A DNA stretch of 42,366 nucleotides from Clostridia bacterium (GTDB lineage: Bacteria > Bacillota > Clostridia > Christensenellales > Borkfalkiaceae): NCBI GenBank assembly GCA_017467345.1, contig JAFTSI010000003.1, forward strand, positions 1 to 42,366. The letters run 5' to 3'. Below, in pieces: positions 432 to 12,024 of the stretch. A model generated the notes under the pieces. That model searched no databases. It was not told the DNA's origin and saw only the letters and a program-made list of their open reading frames with translations. Made by a program: the position numbers and the translations under genes. The first letter of the stretch is position 1. Every line of letters begins with the position of its first letter.

Positions 432-740
432 TTATAATTTTTCAATTGAATAAATATCACTAAACGATATTACTTTTTTTACCAAAACAATCCTTTGACT
501 TATGGCATTTATTTCACTAACAAGCCCTTCATCAATTTCATAACAATCTTTATTATAATATTTTATTCTAATTAAATCACCTTTTTTAATATTATTAAGA
601 GTTTCGTTAATTTTAATTAAGTCTGTTTCTTCAAGGCTAATTTTATCGCATTTAATTTATGAAGTTTCTCTAACCATCACATCAAAGCCACGCAATGCCG
701 AAAAGGGCGCAAATTGTTTTGCACGGTCAATTCTATTCAT
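432..740 (-). pseudogene. YolD-like protein, interrupted by an in-frame stop
   Basis: The 102-codon frame begins MNRIDRAKQFAPFSALRGFD, the hallmark opening of YolD-like proteins, and ends with a typical beta-rich half (KKGDLIRIKYYNKDCYEID). YolD-like genes sit beside Y-family polymerases of the UvrX type in Firmicutes and their mobile elements, and that is the case here: the start overlaps the last 8 bases of the polymerase gene. Codon 28 is TAA (657-659), splitting the protein into 27 and 74 residues, while the frame on both sides remains coding-like. The precise role of YolD is not settled; it is thought to assist or regulate the polymerase. The single nonsense change suggests recent inactivation. 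Confidence 0.8.
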
Positions 741-2013
741 CTTCTCCACCGTTATGCCCTCCTACCATTTTATTGCGTTGCATAGCCGTTGCACCGTCTT
801 CATAACTTATTGCTTTTAAAATTGAGTTCTTTCCATACTTATTTTTAATATCTATTACAGTATTTAAGAGGTTTCTTTCTTTTTCTTCCTTTTTAGCATC
901 ACTAAACAAATCAAGTGTTAAATACTCTTCGCCAAGTAAGTTATTAAGCCCTATATTTATTTTGCGAACAGGCGCAACCCTATCAACCGTGCTTAAATAA
1001 TATTCTTCAAAAGCCTTTCTAAGCCTTATCGCAGAATTAGTATAAACAGGCAATTTTTTACTGCCACCCGTGGGCTTTATTGCTTCTTTTGAATAGTTAA
1101 TGTGTAGCGAAATTGAATTAGTAGCAAGTTTATTATCAACAAGTTCAAGCACTAATTTATCAACCATTTCTTTTAACACTATAAGCGCTTTATCATAAGT
1201 ATAATCTTTCATTAATATTTGTCCGTTAGATAAAGAACTACTTTTTGTTTTATAAGCGTGTATATCACTAATAGTGCAAGGCTCAATACCGTTGGCGTGG
1301 TCAATTAATATTTCAGCATTAACACCAAACTCTTTATAAATCTTCTTTTCGTTAGCGTGCGCAAGCCCACAAAGGTCTTTAATCCCCTACTTTTCAAGCC
1401 TATTAACAATTCCTTTGCCAAATCCCCACACATCAGTTAAAGGCTTATGGAACCAGATGGAACGCTTAAACTCTTTTTCATCTAAATCACCTATATAATC
1501 CCTTGCGTGTTTTGCCGTTATATCTAATGCAACTTTTGCTAAAAATAGGTTGTCGCCTATTCCAACAGTAGCACAAATCCCAGTTGAACGCATAACATCT
1601 TCAATCATCATCTTTGCAAGTTCTACTGCGCTTTTATCATATAATTTTATATAATCGGTAATATCTATAAAACAATCATCAACAGAATAAACATGTATAT
1701 CTTCTTATGAAACATATTTAAGGTAAATTGAATATATTTCGGCTGATTTTTGCATATAGAGTTTCATTCTTGGCTTAGCCATAATATATTCAATATTTTT
1801 TGGTATTTCAAATATTCTGCACCTATTTTTGATGCCAAGTTCTTTCATTTTTGGGGTTATTGCAAGGCAAACGGTGCCGTCACTTCTACTTGAATCGGCA
1901 ACCACTAAATTAGTCTTAAACGAGTCAAGCCCAAGTTCAACACATTCAACTGATGCATAAAAACTTTTTAAGTCAATACACATATAAGTTTTTTTATTTG
2001 CAACACTATCCAT
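733..2013 (-). pseudogene. Y-family DNA polymerase (UvrX/DinB-like), two in-frame stops
   Basis: One continuous frame of 426 codons, full length for UvrX-type translesion polymerases, carries TAA at 1705-1707 and TAG at 1387-1389. It contains the N-terminal catalytic motif DLKSFYASVE, the second catalytic motif as YSVDDCFIDIT (family usually S-x-D-E, so the Glu is Asp here), the palm/fingers helices, and a C-terminal little-finger region reaching LDLFSD. I translated the segments between the stops and found no frameshift and no other stop. Each stop could come from a single base change (for example TTG to TAG in RLEK-stop-GIKDL). It overlaps the yolD-like gene by 8 bases, a normal UvrX-YolD operon. 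Inactivation is the simplest reading; readthrough cannot be excluded. Confidence 0.85.
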
Positions 2014-2019
2014 ATTTTT

Positions 2020-2028
2020 ATTATAACA
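2020..2028 (-). promoter_or_regulatory. Extended -10 promoter abutting the polymerase start
   Basis: On the minus strand TGTTATAAT (TGn plus a perfect -10) ends only six bases before the ATG at 2013. No ribosome binding site precedes that ATG, so a transcript from here would be leaderless or nearly so. No good -35 box is visible. A GAAC half-site just upstream (2035-2038) is followed by a poor partner, so a LexA box is doubtful. Confidence 0.5.
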
Positions 2029-2056
2029 CTTTTGTTCTTAAAAATCCACAAAAACC

Positions 2057-2088
2057 AAAACGCGCTTACCCTTTTAAGCGCGTTTTTT
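2057..2088. terminator. Strong terminator, probably the original rlmCD terminator
   Basis: CGCGCTT (2061-2067) pairs with AAGCGCG (2076-2082), flanked by AAAA and TTTTTT, so it can act on both strands. On the minus strand it directly follows the displaced rlmCD-like tail, whose stop codon lies at the edge of the stem. Confidence 0.85.
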
Positions 2089-2148
2089 AATTATATTTAC
2101 ATCTTTTTTATTTACTAATTTTTCAAGGCAAACAACAGTTTCAACAAA
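2074..2148 (-). pseudogene. Displaced 3' end of an rlmCD-type gene
   Basis: The minus strand reads FVETVVCLEKLVNKKDVN and continues to a stop at 2074-2076. VETVVCL matches the conserved end of RlmCD/RumA-family methyltransferases, and the intact rlmCD upstream ends with IETVVCLTRK. At DNA level 14 of 16 bases agree between 2127-2142 and 2967-2982. No start codon or methyltransferase body precedes the fragment. It looks like the original end of rlmCD, cut off by insertion of the 2169-2855 region, which supplied the present end. The similarity and position are seen; the insertion history is inference. Confidence 0.55.
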
Positions 2149-2168
2149 AAAACTACAAAAAATATAAT

Positions 2169-2855
2169 TTAAGCAATTTCAATTTGCCAAAAAATATTTT
2201 TACACTTGATATAAGGCTCTCCCATTTCAGCATTATAATCACAACCATCAATCCAACCTGCAAACCCATCTAATACCTTAAACGAAAAACCATCTTCTGT
2301 TTTCTTAATTTCCGAATCCAAGATTAAACCAACTTTTTCATTGAAGTCTGCATCAATAATTCCATCAAAAGTTACAGTAATATAGCACCCCCATGTTGTA
2401 TCAAAGCGAATTACAACACTATCTCCCCTTTCTTCATATTCGCATATTAAAGAATCATGAAATCCAAATGCAACATTTTCAAGCGTAGCAATATCTTTCT
2501 CATTTTTTATCTCAATGAATTTAGGAACACATATATTCTTGCAATAGTCTTTGAATAAAGGAAATTTCTCAATACTTACGCCCTTATTTGACTTAAGCGC
2601 CTTAAACAAAGATTTATCGTTGATTACCCAATCATATCCAGAAAACCCTCTACCAATTATATCAAAATCGTTTTCAAGCACAAAAATATTTCTATTAATT
2701 TTACGAAAGCCCAAATCCCACATTTTAATTTTCTTTATTTTTTTAAATGTTTCATCAAAAACAATTGCCTCTGATTTCCAACCAACATATTTCAAGGCAA
2801 ATATCGGCGAAACATAGGTAGAACCGTCTTTCTTCTTTATAATACCATAAGTCAC
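2169..2855 (-). CDS. Orphan protein of unknown function, possible cargo at the rlmCD site
   Basis: This 228-residue soluble protein has no signal peptide or membrane segment and I do not recognise its family. The N-terminal half is basic (KKIKKIKMWDLGFRK). The C-terminal half carries GFHDSLI near residue 131 followed by alternating beta-like segments (VVIRFDTTWGCYITVTFD). Similar F-H-D-S layouts occur in immunity-like and other small accessory proteins, but that is only a resemblance. The start is GTG at 2855, supported by AAAGGAG ten bases upstream; TTGACT with a weak TATAGA-like -10 lies further up. It is alone between rlmCD and a displaced rlmCD tail, which suggests acquired cargo rather than a core gene. 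Confidence 0.75.
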   Translation of the reverse strand: MTYGIIKKKDGSTYVSPIFALKYVGWKSEAIVFDETFKKIKKIKMWDLGFRKINRNIFVLENDFDIIGRGFSGYDWVINDKSLFKALKSNKGVSIEKFPLFKDYCKNICVPKFIEIKNEKDIATLENVAFGFHDSLICEYEERGDSVVIRFDTTWGCYITVTFDGIIDADFNEKVGLILDSEIKKTEDGFSFKVLDGFAGWIDGCDYNAEMGEPYIKCKNIFWQIEIA

Positions 2856-2952
2856 TTTGTATCAACTCCTTTAAACATGTTATTTAAAAATCTATAAATT
2901 AATTTTTGAATTTTAGTCAAAAACATGTGATTGTGCCAATTTAAAAGTCATT

Positions 2953-4359
2953 TCATTTTCGTGTCAGACAAACGACAGTTTCTATGTGTTTGGTTTGTGG
3001 GAACATATCAAATGGTTTTACACAAGTTAATTCATATCTTGGCGTATAATCTTTAACCTTTCTAATTTGGCCATCTTCACACTTTAATGAGCCGACCAAA
3101 AGACCTATGTCGCGAGCAAGAGTTGAGGGCTTGCACGAAACATAAACAATTTTTTCTATGCCGCTTTTAATGATAGAATCAATAACGGTTAAATCGCAAC
3201 CCTTTCTTGGTGGGTCTAACACCAAACATAATTTGCTACCCTTTGCCCTTTCTTCTTTTATTAGATTAGGCAAAATATCTTCACATTTACCGCAATAGTT
3301 AACAATTTTATCACTTAAACCGTTAATCAAAGCAAGTTCGTTTGCGTTTTTAACGGCTTCTTCTATTATTTCAATACCGTAAGCATTTTTTGCTTTAACT
3401 GATAATAAAGCCGTCATAAGCCCTGCGCCACTATAAGCATCAACAACGGTAGTATGTAAATCAGCATCAACTAAATCTCTAACAGTAGAGTAAAGTTTTA
3501 AACAAACATCATTATTAACTTGCATAAAACTTCTAACGCCTATTTTATATTTAATTCCAAATGCTTCGGCAATATAGTGTGGCTTGCCATAAACCAGTTC
3601 AAAATCGTTGCCATATATCACATTAGATTTTTTAGAATTGTAATTTATGTATAAAGAAAACTCACCCTTAAGTTTTGAAGATAATATTTCAATTAAACTA
3701 TCAATACCCTTAGGTTTTTTATCTAAAACTACTAAAGTGATAATTAAATTGCCTTCAATTTCTTTAACAGTAATTTCCCTTAAATCGCCAGAGTGAGTAA
3801 TTTCATCATAGCCAACAATGTTAAAATCTAAAATATACTTTTTAAAGCAAGAAATAATTGTTTTAGTCCAGTCAGGGTTTATAGGGCAATCATCTATAGG
3901 GATTATTCTATGAGAGTTTTCTGCATAAAAGCCTATTTCGGTTTTGCCATTTACAATTCCAACAGGCAATTGAAGTTTATTTCTATACCCAAACTCTAAC
4001 CCACTTTTAACGGCGGGCTTAACTTCCACTTTTAAGTCGGCAATTTTAGAAAAGCATTTTTCAATATTTTCTTCTTTTAATTTAAGTTGATTTTGGTATC
4101 GTAAATGTTGAAGTTGACAACCACCACATTTTTCAAAAACTGCACACTTTGGCCTTATTCTATTTTCGGCAGGCGTTAAAACTTCTAATATTTTACCGTA
4201 AGCAAACTTTGAAGAAACTTTAAGTATTTTATACCTAACCTTTTCCCCAACAAGGCCAAATGGCAAAAAAACAACTAAATTGTCAAATTTTAACACCCCT
4301 TCGCCTTCGCTACCCATATCGGTGATAACACCTATGTATTCATCATTTTTTCTTATCAT
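2953..4359 (-). CDS. rlmCD: 23S rRNA (uracil-C5)-methyltransferase RlmCD
   Basis: It transfers a methyl group from SAM to C5 of uridines in 23S rRNA; Gram-positive RlmCD enzymes modify two sites. Residues 1-60 form the TRAM RNA-binding domain. Cysteines 72, 78 and 81 (CAVFEKCGGC) plus one in DDCPINP match the iron-sulfur cluster ligands. The C-terminal Rossmann domain has VVDAYSGAGLMTALL, the motif LVLDPPRKGC and the catalytic cysteine in YVSCKPSTLARD. The 468 residues are a normal length. It is the last gene of the trpS-led run, four bases after the membrane protein gene, with no visible ribosome binding site, so translation may be coupled. Its final codons (TVVCLTRK) appear to have been supplied by an insertion; a similar tail lies 840 bp downstream. 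Confidence 0.93.
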   Translation of the reverse strand: MIRKNDEYIGVITDMGSEGEGVLKFDNLVVFLPFGLVGEKVRYKILKVSSKFAYGKILEVLTPAENRIRPKCAVFEKCGGCQLQHLRYQNQLKLKEENIEKCFSKIADLKVEVKPAVKSGLEFGYRNKLQLPVGIVNGKTEIGFYAENSHRIIPIDDCPINPDWTKTIISCFKKYILDFNIVGYDEITHSGDLREITVKEIEGNLIITLVVLDKKPKGIDSLIEILSSKLKGEFSLYINYNSKKSNVIYGNDFELVYGKPHYIAEAFGIKYKIGVRSFMQVNNDVCLKLYSTVRDLVDADLHTTVVDAYSGAGLMTALLSVKAKNAYGIEIIEEAVKNANELALINGLSDKIVNYCGKCEDILPNLIKEERAKGSKLCLVLDPPRKGCDLTVIDSIIKSGIEKIVYVSCKPSTLARDIGLLVGSLKCEDGQIRKVKDYTPRYELTCVKPFDMFPQTKHIETVVCLTRK

Positions 4360-5502: not shown

Positions 5503-6344
5503 TTACAGTTCTCCATTATTTTTTTAGTTTGAGCATTAAGCCCCAAAAATAAAATATTATCAGTTAAATCATGATTAAAATTATACTTTATAGCCCTTGC
5601 GCATCCGTTTATGTCAGACAAAATATAGCCAAAAAGTCTTTCTAATTCCTTGCGATTTTGCGAAATAAACATTTCTTTTGATTTGGCATCTGCGTAGCAG
5701 TTAACAAATATGTTATAAGAGCCTTTTTTAATATCCTTATCAAAATCATCAAGCGCATCTATTAAGTAAATCCACTTGCCTAACCCATATGATAAGTTAA
5801 GCAATTCTTCATGACTACCATCACCCACTAAACAAGAAACAATATCGCGCATCATACTGCCAAATGGGTCGGCAACAATATCAATGCTTGCACAATTTTC
5901 CTTTTCAAGTTTAATTAATTTTTGATAATATTTAGAAACAATTTTATCAAGTTCTGGCTCTTTTTTTATCGCCTTTTTATATGGCTTTTTGAAAAAGGCT
6001 TTTTTAATTCCGCCCTTTTTTTCATCTAAAACATCATCGGCGCATTTATGATAAGCAAGTATAACATTAAGTGCACCTATTCTTTTAGATAGTTCATCAA
6101 CCTTTGCCATAGGCTTGCGCCTAAACCAATGAATAATACAGCGTTGTTTTTCAATAACCACATCATTATTCATATAGTTATGAAGCAGTACTGACAAAAA
6201 GGTTAAATCATAGTTTAAACAAAATCTTCCCCTATTTCCACACGACTTACCTATTGCCTTACATAGCCCACAATACATTGATTGATATAAAACCGTATCT
6301 TTAACTATTAAATTTTGATAATCGGTTTTAACATAGCCGAACAT
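5478..6344 (-). CDS. DUF5685 family protein
   Basis: The opening MFGYVKTDYQ followed by YQSMYCGLCKAIG is typical of DUF5685, a helical family of unknown function. Two Asp-rich sites stand out: DDVLDE at 103-108 and DALDDFDKD at 196-204, followed by KKGSYN. Their spacing and sequence resemble the two metal-binding motifs of class I isoprenoid synthases, which is inference from motif shape only. DPFGSMMRDIV (159-169) is another conserved-looking patch. The start codon lies one base after trpS, with AAGGGG in the trpS end as ribosome binding site, and the end overlaps the J-protein start by 25 bases, so the two are translationally coupled. Confidence 0.85.
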   Translation of the reverse strand: MFGYVKTDYQNLIVKDTVLYQSMYCGLCKAIGKSCGNRGRFCLNYDLTFLSVLLHNYMNNDVVIEKQRCIIHWFRRKPMAKVDELSKRIGALNVILAYHKCADDVLDEKKGGIKKAFFKKPYKKAIKKEPELDKIVSKYYQKLIKLEKENCASIDIVADPFGSMMRDIVSCLVGDGSHEELLNLSYGLGKWIYLIDALDDFDKDIKKGSYNIFVNCYADAKSKEMFISQNRKELERLFGYILSDINGCARAIKYNFNHDLTDNILFLGLNAQTKKIMENCKCKNTTKY

Positions 6345-8937: not shown

Positions 8938-9342
8938 TTAAAGGTGTTTTACAATAAACTCAGGCAAATCTTCTTTTGCAGCAGAGCAAGTTAATACGAA
9001 ATTAACACCAAACTCTTTTTCAAGCATTTCCATAGCATCAAAAATGCTTTGCATTTCAGCAAGTGGTTTGCCAGTAATTCTTGCAATACCATCTAAGTAT
9101 ACATATTCATTGTCGCCATTTGCAGCAACAATACCTTTAATAAAACCACGCAATCCATCTTCATTTTTGATATCAAACTTAGAAACATCTAAAAGCCTGA
9201 TTTTATATTTAATATCGTGGTTATATCTGTTAGTGTCGGTAATAAACACAACATGCCCTTTAGCGGTTTCTGCCACTTCGTTGGCACTGTCAATAATAAT
9301 TTTGGTTTTGCCTGTTCCTTTGGGTCCGTAAATAATTTTCAT
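8938..9342 (-). CDS. Small P-loop NTPase-like protein
   Basis: The 134-residue protein begins MKIIYGPKGTGKTKII, a canonical Walker A motif (residues 6-13). NEYVYLDGIARI near residues 98-109 could be Walker B, with the Asp after three hydrophobic residues. The rest is a compact alpha/beta core ending EEFGVNFVLTCSA-like (actual residues EFGVNFVLTCSA), consistent with a strand before the C-terminal helix. There is no partner domain, which is small for an ATPase. Its cellular role is unknown. AGGAGG lies about 12 bases before the ATG, with a promoter-like pair further up, so it appears independently transcribed. Confidence 0.8.
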   Translation of the reverse strand: MKIIYGPKGTGKTKIIIDSANEVAETAKGHVVFITDTNRYNHDIKYKIRLLDVSKFDIKNEDGLRGFIKGIVAANGDNEYVYLDGIARITGKPLAEMQSIFDAMEMLEKEFGVNFVLTCSAAKEDLPEFIVKHL

Positions 9343-9376
9343 TTGAAAAGGTTTCCTCCTAATCTTTCTTTATTAT

Positions 9377-9405
9377 ATTTTATAATACTTTACCAAGAAA
9401 TACAA
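9377..9405 (-). promoter_or_regulatory. Candidate promoter of the P-loop gene
   Basis: TTGTAT (9400-9405) and TAAAAT (9377-9382) on the minus strand are 17 bases apart, about 34 bases before the ATG. A second -10-like TATAAT overlaps slightly downstream. Confidence 0.45.
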
Positions 9406-9415
9406 GGGGGTTTTT

Positions 9416-9446
9416 AAAAATTATTGAGCAAAAAGCAATAATTTTT
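9416..9446 (-). terminator. AT-rich hairpin at the end of the citrate-synthase-like gene
   Basis: An 11-bp stem AAAAATTATTG/CAATAATTTTT with a 9-base loop spans the last codons and stop of the gene. The T-tract is part of the stem and the stem has only one G-C pair, so termination would be weak. Confidence 0.35.
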
Positions 9447-10827
9447 TATGAAACTCTTTATCGCAGAGCATAAGCATATTATCTAATTCATCATCACCAA
9501 ATACTGTGCAACGACCGTTTGCATATTCTGCATCAATCATTTCTTTTATTTTAGCAATAACTGGGTGGCTTTTATCAACCTTATGGTCTTCAGGAAGTTC
9601 ATAATATTCGTTAATCCAGTAAGCAATACCTGCAAGACCTGAACCATTGTTAATAGATACATGCATAGGACGATTTAATAACTTTTTCGTGTTGAAAATG
9701 TTATAGATTTCTTCATCTTTAAGCATACCGTCTGCGTGAATACCTGCCCTTGTTGAGTTGAAACTTCTACCAACAAATGGAGTTCTTGATGGGATTACAT
9801 AACCGATTTCGCGTTCAAAGTAGTTAGCGATATCAGTAATTGCAGTATAGTCCATACCGTCTTCTGTGCCTTTGAATGAAGAATATTCAATAGCCATTGC
9901 TTCTAATGGGCAGTTACCAGTTCTTTCGCCTATACCTAAAAGCGAGCAGTTAACTGCAGAACAACCATAAAGCCAAGCGCTTGATGCGTTGGTAACAACT
10001 TTATAGAAGTCGTTATGACCGTGCCACTCTAAAAGTTCGCTTGGAACTTCTGCATAGTGGCGTAAGCCGTAAATTATACCTGGAACACTTCTTGGAAGTG
10101 ATGCGCCAACAAAGTTAACGCCAAAGCCCATAGTGTCGCAAGCACGGATTTTAATAGGAATACCACTCTCTTTCATAAGTTTCATAAGTTCAATTGCAAA
10201 TGGAACTACAAAACCATAGAAATCTGCCCTTGTAATATCTTCAAAGTGGCATCTGGGTTTAACACCTGCGGCAAGCGCATCTTTAACAGCGCCTAAATAT
10301 TTATCAAGTGCTTGTGCACGAGTTAAGTTCATTTTCTTAAAAATATGATAGTCAGAACAACTTACCAAAATACCAGTTTCTTTGATACCCATTTCTTTAA
10401 CAAGTTCAAAGTCTTTTTTATTTGCTCTAATCCAACTGGTAACTTCTGGGAACTTTAAGCCAAGTTCCATACATGCCCTTGCGGCTTGCCTATCTTTTTC
10501 GCTATAAAGGAAAAACTCTGATTGACGAATTATACCCTTTTTGCCGCCAAGCCTTGACATTAATTTAAATAATTCAACAATTTGTTCAACGGTAAATTGT
10601 GAAGTTGATTGTTGTCCGTCACGGAAAGTGGTGTCGGTAATCCAAATATTGTTTGGCATTTCCATAGGAACATGACGGTTATTGAAAGTGATTTTTGGAA
10701 CATGGTCATAGTCAAAAATATCACGATACAACTCAGGTTTTTTCACATCTTGTAATGTGTAATTATATTTATATTCTTCAAGCAAGTTGGTTTTCTTGCT
10801 CATTATAATTTTCTTTTTATGAGACAT
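9421..10827 (-). CDS. Isopropylmalate/homocitrate synthase family protein, possible Re-citrate synthase
   Basis: The DRE-TIM metallolyase barrel is clear: TDTTFRDGQQS (64-74) supplies the catalytic Arg-Asp, and WHGHNDFYK carries the metal-binding histidines. Members of this family condense acetyl-CoA with a 2-oxo acid. Length 468 lacks the LeuA allosteric domain. The family includes the Re-face citrate synthase of Clostridium kluyveri. With an aspartate-type aminotransferase directly upstream, a route oxaloacetate to citrate to glutamate is attractive, but citramalate or homocitrate synthesis is not excluded. The ribosome binding site AAGGAGGT lies inside the last codons of the aminotransferase gene, whose stop is directly followed by this ATG. 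A second ATG eight codons in lacks a good site. Confidence 0.85.
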   Translation of the reverse strand: MSHKKKIIMSKKTNLLEEYKYNYTLQDVKKPELYRDIFDYDHVPKITFNNRHVPMEMPNNIWITDTTFRDGQQSTSQFTVEQIVELFKLMSRLGGKKGIIRQSEFFLYSEKDRQAARACMELGLKFPEVTSWIRANKKDFELVKEMGIKETGILVSCSDYHIFKKMNLTRAQALDKYLGAVKDALAAGVKPRCHFEDITRADFYGFVVPFAIELMKLMKESGIPIKIRACDTMGFGVNFVGASLPRSVPGIIYGLRHYAEVPSELLEWHGHNDFYKVVTNASSAWLYGCSAVNCSLLGIGERTGNCPLEAMAIEYSSFKGTEDGMDYTAITDIANYFEREIGYVIPSRTPFVGRSFNSTRAGIHADGMLKDEEIYNIFNTKKLLNRPMHVSINNGSGLAGIAYWINEYYELPEDHKVDKSHPVIAKIKEMIDAEYANGRCTVFGDDELDNMLMLCDKEFHKKLLLFAQ

Positions 10828-12024
10828 TTATTTTACCTCCTTAATAAATTCAATTAGCCTATTTAAGCCTTCCTTAATATCTTCAATAGATATAGCATAA
10901 GAAAGCCTAATACAATTATCGTCGCCAAAAGCAACACCGGGGATTAAAGCTACACCCTTTTGCAAAGCAAGGTCTGCAAAAGTGAGCGAACCTTTAATTT
11001 CTTGGCCGTTATATGATTTTCCATAAAGTGATGAAACATCAACAAACACATAAAATGCGCCTTCTGGAACGGCGATTGAAACTTCTTTAATGCTATTTAA
11101 GGTTTCAATCATATATTTTCTTCTTTCATCAAAAACGCCTTGCATTTTAGCAATAAACTCTTCGCCCTGCTTATCTTCTAACGCAGCAACTGATGCGTAT
11201 TGAGCGATTGAGTTAGCGTTACTTGTGGTATGGCTTTGAATACTTGAAATTGCTTTAGCAAGTTTTACAGGCGCTGCAATATAACCGATACGCCAACCAG
11301 TCATTGAATAAGTTTTACTCATACCATTAACTATAATGGTATGTTCTTTCATATAATCGCTACATTTTGCAATAGAAAAATGTTCATTTCCATCATAAAT
11401 GAGTTTTTCATATATTTCATCAGAAATTACATAAATACCCTTTTCTTCGCAAACTTTTGCAAGCGCTCTAATTTCTTTTTCGCTATAAACTGCGCCCGTT
11501 GGATTACAGGGTGAGTTCAAAATTAAGCATTTTGTTTTATCAGTAATTGCATTTTCAAGTTCTTCGGCAGTAATTTTATAGCCGTTTTCCTTTTTGCATT
11601 GAACAAAAACACACTTTCCATCGGCAAGTTTAACAAGTTCAGGATATGTTAACCAGTATGGTGATGGAATTATAACTTCTTCACCACAGTCAACAAGTGC
11701 TTCCATAGTGTGATAAAGAGAACTTTTTGCACCTGAAGAAATAACTATTTGGTCAGGAGTATAAGATAAACCGTTATCCCTTAAAAACTTATTACAAATT
11801 GCCTTTTTAAGTTCAGGAGTGCCTGATGCTGGGGTATATTTAGTAAACCCGATATCTAACGCTTTTTTAGCCGATTCAATAATAAAATCGGGAGTATTAA
11901 AGTCAGGTTCGCCTGCGCCGAAACCTATAACAGAAATACCTTCCGCCTTCATTTTTTTGGCTTTTGCGGTGATTTCAAGTGTAATTGACGGTGAAATTAA
12001 CTGTGCTCTTTGCGAAATACTCAT
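10828..12024 (-). CDS. Class I PLP aminotransferase, aspartate aminotransferase type
   Basis: It transfers amino groups between aspartate (or a similar amino acid) and 2-oxoglutarate. Fold-type I features are present: GAGEPDFNTPDFI near the N-terminus, SPCNPTGAVYS in the middle, the PLP lysine in NGMSKTYSMTGWRIGY, and the carboxylate-binding arginine in CIRLSYA. At 398 residues it matches the AspB/AAT-1b subgroup. AAGGAG lies eight bases before the ATG, and the gene starts 11 bases after prfA, so it is probably in the same operon. Direct abutment with the citrate-synthase-like gene suggests a role around oxaloacetate and glutamate. Substrate cannot be fixed from sequence. Confidence 0.9.
   Translation of the reverse strand: MSISQRAQLISPSITLEITAKAKKMKAEGISVIGFGAGEPDFNTPDFIIESAKKALDIGFTKYTPASGTPELKKAICNKFLRDNGLSYTPDQIVISSGAKSSLYHTMEALVDCGEEVIIPSPYWLTYPELVKLADGKCVFVQCKKENGYKITAEELENAITDKTKCLILNSPCNPTGAVYSEKEIRALAKVCEEKGIYVISDEIYEKLIYDGNEHFSIAKCSDYMKEHTIIVNGMSKTYSMTGWRIGYIAAPVKLAKAISSIQSHTTSNANSIAQYASVAALEDKQGEEFIAKMQGVFDERRKYMIETLNSIKEVSIAVPEGAFYVFVDVSSLYGKSYNGQEIKGSLTFADLALQKGVALIPGVAFGDDNCIRLSYAISIEDIKEGLNRLIEFIKEVK

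Follow-up and report, generated by a model that had tools for sequence, protein, structure and literature searches.

A one-gene insert at the 3' end of rlmCD in a member of the Borkfalkiaceae, probably a recombinase-less cassette

Why should the last codons of a ribosomal RNA methyltransferase gene occur twice, some 840 bp apart, with a single gene between the copies? The question is raised by the stretch of 42,366 nucleotides analysed here (the window: contig JAFTSI010000003.1 of assembly GCA_017467345.1, from a Clostridia bacterium of the family Borkfalkiaceae), in which rlmCD is followed by a near-copy of its own tail. An original prediction, made from the sequence of the window alone, held that an element had inserted at the 3' end of rlmCD, replaced its final codons and either shrunk to one cargo gene or been a small novel integrating unit. 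Comparison with relatives makes an insertion at rlmCD almost certain, given the repeat, the apparently empty sites in two genus mates (G004 and G024) and the recurrence of the arrangement in 27 of 398 family genomes. Judging from sequence, the insert is probably a recombinase-less cassette, resembling a cis-mobilisable element (CIME), that was placed at rlmCD by a serine recombinase of the rumA type, the window copy being an old one.

The repeat and the displaced rlmCD end

The target gene, encoding a 23S rRNA uracil-5 methyltransferase, occupies 2953-4359 on the minus strand, as do the parts of the insert described below. It is recognised by its open reading frame (ORF) and by the Pfam families tRNA_U5-meth_tr and TRAM, and its product reads HIETVVCLTRK at the C-terminus. 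The 16 bases at 2967-2982 and those at 2127-2142 agree at 14 positions on recomputation, as had been noted from the sequence. The first copy, a putative attL-like junction at 2967-2985, has the same place at the rlmCD end as the core (the short tail copy) of the family units. The second belongs to a putative attR-like junction with a displaced rlmCD 3' end (2074-2145), whose fragment, read from 2145 to 2074, encodes VETVVCLEKLVNKKDVNIIKKRA and then a stop at 2074, at the edge of a terminator-like stem, just as originally described. This stem of 12 pairs (2057-2086), presumably the original rlmCD terminator, was found on both strands, with 0.2 expected from shuffles. Between the two junctions lie the insert left end (2856-2952, between rlmCD and the cargo gene), the cargo gene (2169-2855) and the insert right end (2146-2168).

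With regard to chance, Markov resampling of the 939-nt region below rlmCD reached 14 of 16 for that 16-mer in 2 of 2000 versions, and the [VI]E[TS][VLI]VxL motif appeared in a forward frame in 2 of 2000 resampled regions. When any 16-mer from the last 38 nt of rlmCD was allowed, 3 of 400 versions matched equally well. Taken by itself, the repeat at rlmCD is suggestive, and evidence from relatives is needed to decide.

Such evidence comes from the genus, where no rlmCD among the mates searched is more than 65% identical to that of the window. An rlmCD match was present in 29 same-genus genomes, the window's included, of which eight (G001, G006, G013, G018, G023, G025, G027 and G031) were dropped because the 3' end or the 2.9 kb beyond it lay off the contig. 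A second tail copy was found downstream in four of the remaining 21, namely the window, G008, G030 and G017 (at 7.5 kb), and a motif scan downstream of rlmCD detected none in the other 17, a SESIVAL match 6.6 kb downstream of the gene in G019 being left uncounted. In G004 and G024 dinB follows rlmCD after 78 and 54 nt and the gene is open over the matched span, as would be expected at an empty site; in the window dinB (733-2013, minus strand), presumably the original downstream neighbour, lies on the far side of the insert. Joining the window flanks in silico yields an rlmCD ending in DMFPQTKHIETVVCLEKLVNKKDVNIIKKRA and a stop. The adjacency of rlmCD and dinB in these two relatives, together with the joined flanks, bears out the empty site that the original prediction had proposed to look for.

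Which of the two ends is foreign was addressed with a left-end model derived from seven cassette left ends, core included, and run on 79 distinct rlmCD tails. The four best tails are training members, the window comes fifth with 29.3 bits and the next scores 20.6. CLTR is found in eight of the 79 tails (L005, L088, L089, L001, L180, L098, L026 and L008) and a second copy follows in all eight; the case that would have told against the insertion, a tail of the TVVCLTRK type with no insertion behind it, was not seen among the 79. Since the window has the top left-end score outside the training set and all CLTR tails have a second copy, the present last codons of rlmCD (CLTRK) appear to derive from a cassette, and the fragment at 2074-2145 appears to be the original end, in agreement with the predicted replacement of the final codons. 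Moderate support is also lent by shuffles of the window left flank with the core fixed, none of which (0 of 1000) reaches the class A left-end score.

The cargo gene is an intact ORF of 228 aa with a GTG start, the sole one of at least 100 aa between the window cores. Its protein matches DUF4085 (PF13315) marginally, at 24.5 bits against a gathering cut-off of 24.1 and over residues 123-195 only. Matches to it were obtained in 21 of 251 family genomes drawn, and the earlier description of the gene as an orphan is fair within the genus, since the window's copy is the only one of its genus in the draw. Homologues of the protein are 36-46% identical, and in other genera several of them form the cargo of a locus at or close to rlmCD, or of one that follows a recombinase gene. 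They stand directly 3' of rlmCD in G210, G260 and G136 and between two core copies in G136, G270, G284 and G107, so that the gene does recur at the same position elsewhere, as it had been suggested to check; the homologue in G139 is not near rlmCD.

Small units between rlmCD tail copies

Tail copies were sought across the family with a 23-base degenerate pattern for HVET-x-V-x-L. Matches occur in 247 of 398 genomes, and 48 have at least two, 39 with two on one strand and 9 with only one per strand. In 27 of the 39 two same-strand copies lie on one contig at most 7.6 kb apart, which is not the case in the other 12; no opposite-strand pair comes that close among the places listed (G402 not included). 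The pattern-table counts were made by eye. As a control the pattern was reversed, and in the family table this produced nothing but isolated, scattered matches. The window is not among the 27, its second copy having no H codon. The first copy is the rlmCD end in 24 of the 27 and the end of a recombinase gene in two (G284 and G148), and in G135 the piece has no rlmCD. The rlmCD 3' end is thereby, as far as sequence can tell, a docking point across the family. Units are undercounted because the motif scans used fixed patterns, which overlook variants (cores of the VETM and VESVF kind at first escaped them); furthermore, the genomes are drafts, in which contig ends conceal units.

When 297 genomes were drawn from the whole order, 23 from the window's family among them, 85 had a match, and clusters were seen in other families too (G567 and G534 are examples). 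At L065, from another family of the order, four tail copies stand in a row at 9288-11762, with a glycosyltransferase and an unknown gene between them, and the core sequences match those of G534. At L051 (G037), likewise from another family of the order, a second stretch matching rlmCD residues 381-467 lies about 3.4 kb downstream of rlmCD and is longer than the short core of other loci.

A set of 38 core-to-core units, the window's included, was chosen on the presence of two copies. Their median length is 857 bp, 35 of them are at most 3 kb (0.06-2.8 kb), and the ten under 300 bp hold no ORF above 83 aa. The cargo comprises a CN-hydrolase/GDPD fusion, FAD oxidoreductases, 23S-IVP proteins, a glycosyltransferase, a C5 methylase with a partner, Gabija GajA/GajB, an Ec107-like retron reverse transcriptase, two PDC-S01 proteins and an NB-ARC protein, and many other cargo proteins match nothing. 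No resolvase or integrase family appeared among the best 25 of the 56 families matched by 43 unit proteins, a range in which a full-length serine recombinase (E of about 1e-30) would rank.

Units with differing cargo share their ends. A right end common to 11 units from four genera contains TATACCTTTTGG twice, 41 nt from start to start (L122), and continues with TTGACCCACGTnGARAC after the pair, some members being partial. A left end of up to about 200 nt, leading to the cargo gene, is common to six of the units examined, in L054 only partly. A model of the right end, trained on the 11 units, finds matches, not all of them inspected, in 40 of 398 genomes (11 of these being training genomes) and in 9 of 18 genera. 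A second type of right end accompanies DUF4085 units and others.

Units without cargo were also observed. One of 202-216 bp lies directly 3' of rlmCD at L109, L111, L113, L117, L118, L119 and L123, in genera g26, g27 and g32. Its own end repeats the rlmCD tail at greater length, as CAAACCAARCACGT followed by the core, and the unit seems to recreate a full target site downstream; at L119 and L111 a further unit follows it. At L128 and L129 (G120 and G295) the cores stand 63 bp apart after rlmCD, as if the unit ends had been joined without cargo. Rfam gave a single match on 12 loci, a cyclic di-GMP riboswitch far from the unit ends (L071). In viral contigs neither the exact right-end pattern nor close relatives of the recombinase and cargo were found, distant relatives not having been sought.

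Boundaries and movement of the units

Eleven pairs of units were aligned to locate their boundaries. In seven, homology stops at most 32 nt past the second core, and in three of these it also starts at the first core, with differing flanks. The clearest is G190/G261, with 94.4% identity over 815 nt, from 3 nt before the V codon of the first core to 14 nt past the start of the second; the alignment is confined to the unit, which follows rlmCD in G190 and a recombinase gene in G261. Two pairs of DUF4085 units are bounded likewise: G136/G284, in which the unit is preceded by rlmCD in G136 and by a recombinase gene in G284, and G270/G284. In G084/G420, G146/G168, G136/G270 and G107/G284 homology has the same limit past the second core and starts inside the unit.

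Similar cargo also occurs in distant species. The FAD-oxidoreductase cargo of G084 and G420, in units of 1327 and 1300 bp without a recombinase, is 86% identical versus 43% for rlmCD. For the DUF4085 cargo of G136 and G210 the values are 71% versus 46%, and for the C5 methylase cargo of G409 and G175 they are 95% versus 72%. The opposite direction is seen in G210/G260, where the DUF4085 cargo is 64% and rlmCD 90% identical.

The recombinase

A candidate enzyme was found at L181, a large serine recombinase of 607 aa with Resolvase, Recombinase and Zn ribbon domains; the core, read in another frame, forms the end of its gene, and a cassette follows. Counting its own genome, 8 of 398 encode a protein at least 57% identical to it, which in two cases is a fragment at a contig end. 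The core is present at the recombinase 3' end in seven of these eight clade members and was not found in G337, and the recombinase gene lies directly before a unit in G261, G284 and G148. The nearest plasmid match, at 53% identity, is the recombinase of Anaerococcus prevotii pAPRE01, the 3' end of which contains an rlmCD-like tail, HVETVALLSKL. On this plasmid (L245), typed as conjugative, rlmCD-like tails stand at 5739 and 8320, one of them inside the recombinase 3' end. At L191 (G168), two different large serine recombinases lie in tandem at 437-3527, directly before cassette cargo, the second being 35% identical to the L181 protein.

Proposed mechanism and competing explanations

The arrangement in the window could have arisen as follows. 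A circle carrying the cargo gene and one core would recombine with the core at the rlmCD end; the incoming core would restore rlmCD with new last codons (CLTRK), and the original end would be pushed about 840 bp downstream. As the insert would have brought its own copy of the core, rlmCD would have kept an end, albeit with new last codons. The enzyme is likely to be a serine recombinase, and most likely one of the large rumA/rlmCD type that would act from another element. We infer that units without a recombinase gene of their own are served by this enzyme, either in trans or in company with an adjacent recombinase unit, and that the window copy was placed in this way. For the units, the evidence leans towards movement as a recombinase-less cassette and not towards shrinkage in place.

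Several observations weigh against this account. Four of the 11 aligned pairs are not core-bounded: homology continues through rlmCD in G409/G175 and G210/G260, the rlmCD parts align too in G136/G210, and G179/G107 aligns only in part. Cargo and rlmCD are not discordant in G136/G183 (59 versus 57%) and G136/G254 (61 versus 62%). Three of the 38 units exceed 3 kb (4.5, 5.6 and 7.5 kb), and in the 5.6-kb unit (L132) there is a Zn-ribbon fragment of a recombinase, as would be expected of a shrinking element. A recombinase of the L181 clade was not found in the window's genome, which is 78% complete, and ORF and Pfam searches detected no recombinase between the window cores. The larger recombinase-bearing element that the original prediction had suggested looking for between such repeats did not materialise in the genus mates with a second copy (G008, G030 and G017), no recognised recombinase being among the families listed (best 25 of 56). 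The ends of the window insert are also poorly marked. The left-end model without the core is not significant there, and when the 75 nt before the second core are shuffled with the core kept, 791 of 1000 versions score as high as the real right end under the class A model. A class A assignment of that right end, which is not recognisable with this model, was discounted on the same shuffles and on the null result of the core-less model, although model R1 has its best match there, at 13.8 bits. Finally, the window cargo is 36-46% identical to its homologues and rlmCD 42-45% in three pairs, which gives no sign of recent transfer; as the cargo is about as diverged as rlmCD, the window copy would be old or divergent.

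The main rival is decay in place, in which an integrative or conjugative element with its own serine recombinase at rlmCD lost everything except one cargo gene and the junctions and became a CIME as originally conceived, with no movement of small cassettes. CIMEs arising by decay have been described (PMC5704250), the L132 fragment fits such a course, and in G168 two serine recombinases directly precede cargo that stands alone after rlmCD in G146, with no core seen between. The compact recombinase-less units with similar cargo in distant species (the FAD units of G084 and G420) point the other way, as does the single right end of units with differing cargo in at least four genera; because of both, independent decay to one compact form is unlikely. 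The recurrence of compact units speaks against decay for the family and is not decisive for the window copy; overall we regard decay in place as the less likely course. Of the two options left by the original prediction, a shrunk element or a small integrating unit, the latter fits the relatives better and neither is preferred for the window copy. It is rather improbable that the site-specific insertion was the work of another enzyme, either a tyrosine recombinase, of the kind that serves integron cassettes or tRNA-end islands, or a serine recombinase from outside the L181 clade, for instance one of the G168 pair. This would accommodate the two direct TATACCTTTTGG-like repeats of the class A right ends, which could be arm-type sites, and the presence of the clade recombinase in only two of the 27 two-copy genomes (G284 and G148). 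The recombinases seen abutting a core are, however, serine recombinases, and the scan of the unit proteins brought up no resolvase or integrase family within the range given above.

Explanations that dispense with insertion fare worse. Were the DUF4085-like gene an old vertical neighbour of rlmCD, lost in other members of the genus, with an incidental second tail, its homologues would be expected directly after rlmCD, as they are in G210, G260 and G136. Yet the window alone represents its genus among the 21 of 251 family genomes with the gene, cargo and rlmCD identities are discordant in both directions in some pairs, and homology ends at the cores in G190/G261, G136/G284 and G270/G284, which makes this history very improbable. 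Local duplication of the rlmCD tail, or chance similarity, is the least credible of all. The repeat is indeed just 16 bp long with two mismatches, and the resampling for any tail 16-mer shows that such a match can arise; the recurrence of the arrangement in 27 of 398 genomes under a strict pattern and the cassette-type tail on the first copy, but not on the second, are left unexplained by it.

A wider generalisation of the preferred account, that of a recombinase-less cassette placed by a serine recombinase, would be an integron-like system, with a large serine recombinase, the rlmCD 3' end as docking site and recombinase-less cassettes with conserved ends crossing genera of an uncultured family of Clostridia. 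Taken jointly with its further parts, namely insertion at rlmCD or behind a recombinase gene, short arrays and phage-defence cargo (Gabija, retron reverse transcriptase, methylase and candidate ATPases, among other cargo), this proposal is tentative, if far from implausible. If small units do move as such, a serine recombinase would serve a pool of gene cassettes in gut Clostridia, a role most familiar from integrons and their tyrosine recombinase, and the interval from rlmCD to a second HVETxV would be a place to find new defence and accessory genes. Moreover, the annotated last codons of rlmCD may be insert-derived.

Comparison with known systems

Streptococcal integrative and conjugative elements (ICEs) and integrative and mobilisable elements (IMEs) integrate in rumA via single serine integrases (PMC4701971, PMC5357655); the rumA/rlmCD 3' end was correctly named in the original prediction as a known streptococcal site, and the enzymes described there are serine integrases (PMC4701971). 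In these rumA ICEs the serine integrase gene is reported to contain attR and to exchange its end with that of rumA (PMC4701971). The similarities include the target gene family and a large serine recombinase (Resolvase, Recombinase and mostly Zn ribbon), and the G261 and G245 recombinases also carry an attR-like core inside the gene, with exchanged last codons. The window insert likewise lies in rumA/rlmCD with direct repeats. Unlike rumA ICEs, it has no integrase, relaxase or transfer gene and its attR is not inside an integrase gene, and 35 of the 38 units measure only 0.06-2.8 kb.

CIMEs are described as decayed ICEs or IMEs, with tandem accretion (PMC5704250). Like them, the window keeps two putative attachment sites (2967-2982 and 2127-2142) without integration or transfer genes, and the family units form tandem arrays. 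No remnants of ICE or IME modules were seen in the window insert. In contrast to CIMEs as portrayed there, the compact units have common ends and turn up repeatedly in different genera, as though they travelled as such.

The staphylococcal cassette chromosome (SCC) and Enterococcus cassette chromosome (ECC) elements are larger than the rlmCD units, as are the ssrA islands of Dehalococcoides, and ccr-less pseudo-SCC elements exist. Integron cassettes are small, mostly of one gene and array-forming, and their recombinase is not cassette-encoded; integrons rely on a tyrosine recombinase and folded attC sites. The present units differ from these in having the coding end of rlmCD as their site and a serine recombinase as their candidate enzyme. 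SCC/ECC elements (PMC6222049) share with the present units large serine recombinases, the 3' end of an rRNA methylase gene (rlmH) and variable cargo, and differ in that the window target is rlmCD, not rlmH, and in their recombinases. The Dehalococcoides islands are reported to lie in tandem between 3'-end repeats, with a serine recombinase module in 16 and none in 15 (PMC3146451). This resembles the tandem arrangement of our units between repeats of one gene's 3' end, with and without a recombinase; their target is the transfer-messenger RNA and the host phylum differs. Among the literature searched, no title dealt with small cassettes at rlmCD or rumA. The same logic is known from CIMEs and accretion, SCC/ECC elements and the Dehalococcoides islands. 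The rlmCD units represent a new variation on it, in that they are tiny, hold little, have ends in common and sit at rlmCD in this family.

Other features of the window

A promoter search over 2000-3100 returned 5 sites against 6.3 expected, with no excess, and Rfam applied to the first 4.5 kb of the window gave a tRNA and one match below the cut-off. The Pfam matches of dinB, which encodes DNA polymerase IV, are IMS, IMS_HHH (weak) and IMS_C, and are spread over three ORFs; the gene has in-frame stops at codons 103 and 209, with no frameshift between the pieces. The tRNA-Thr(GGT) gene at 218-293 on the plus strand is the sole tRNA gene that ARAGORN finds in the window.

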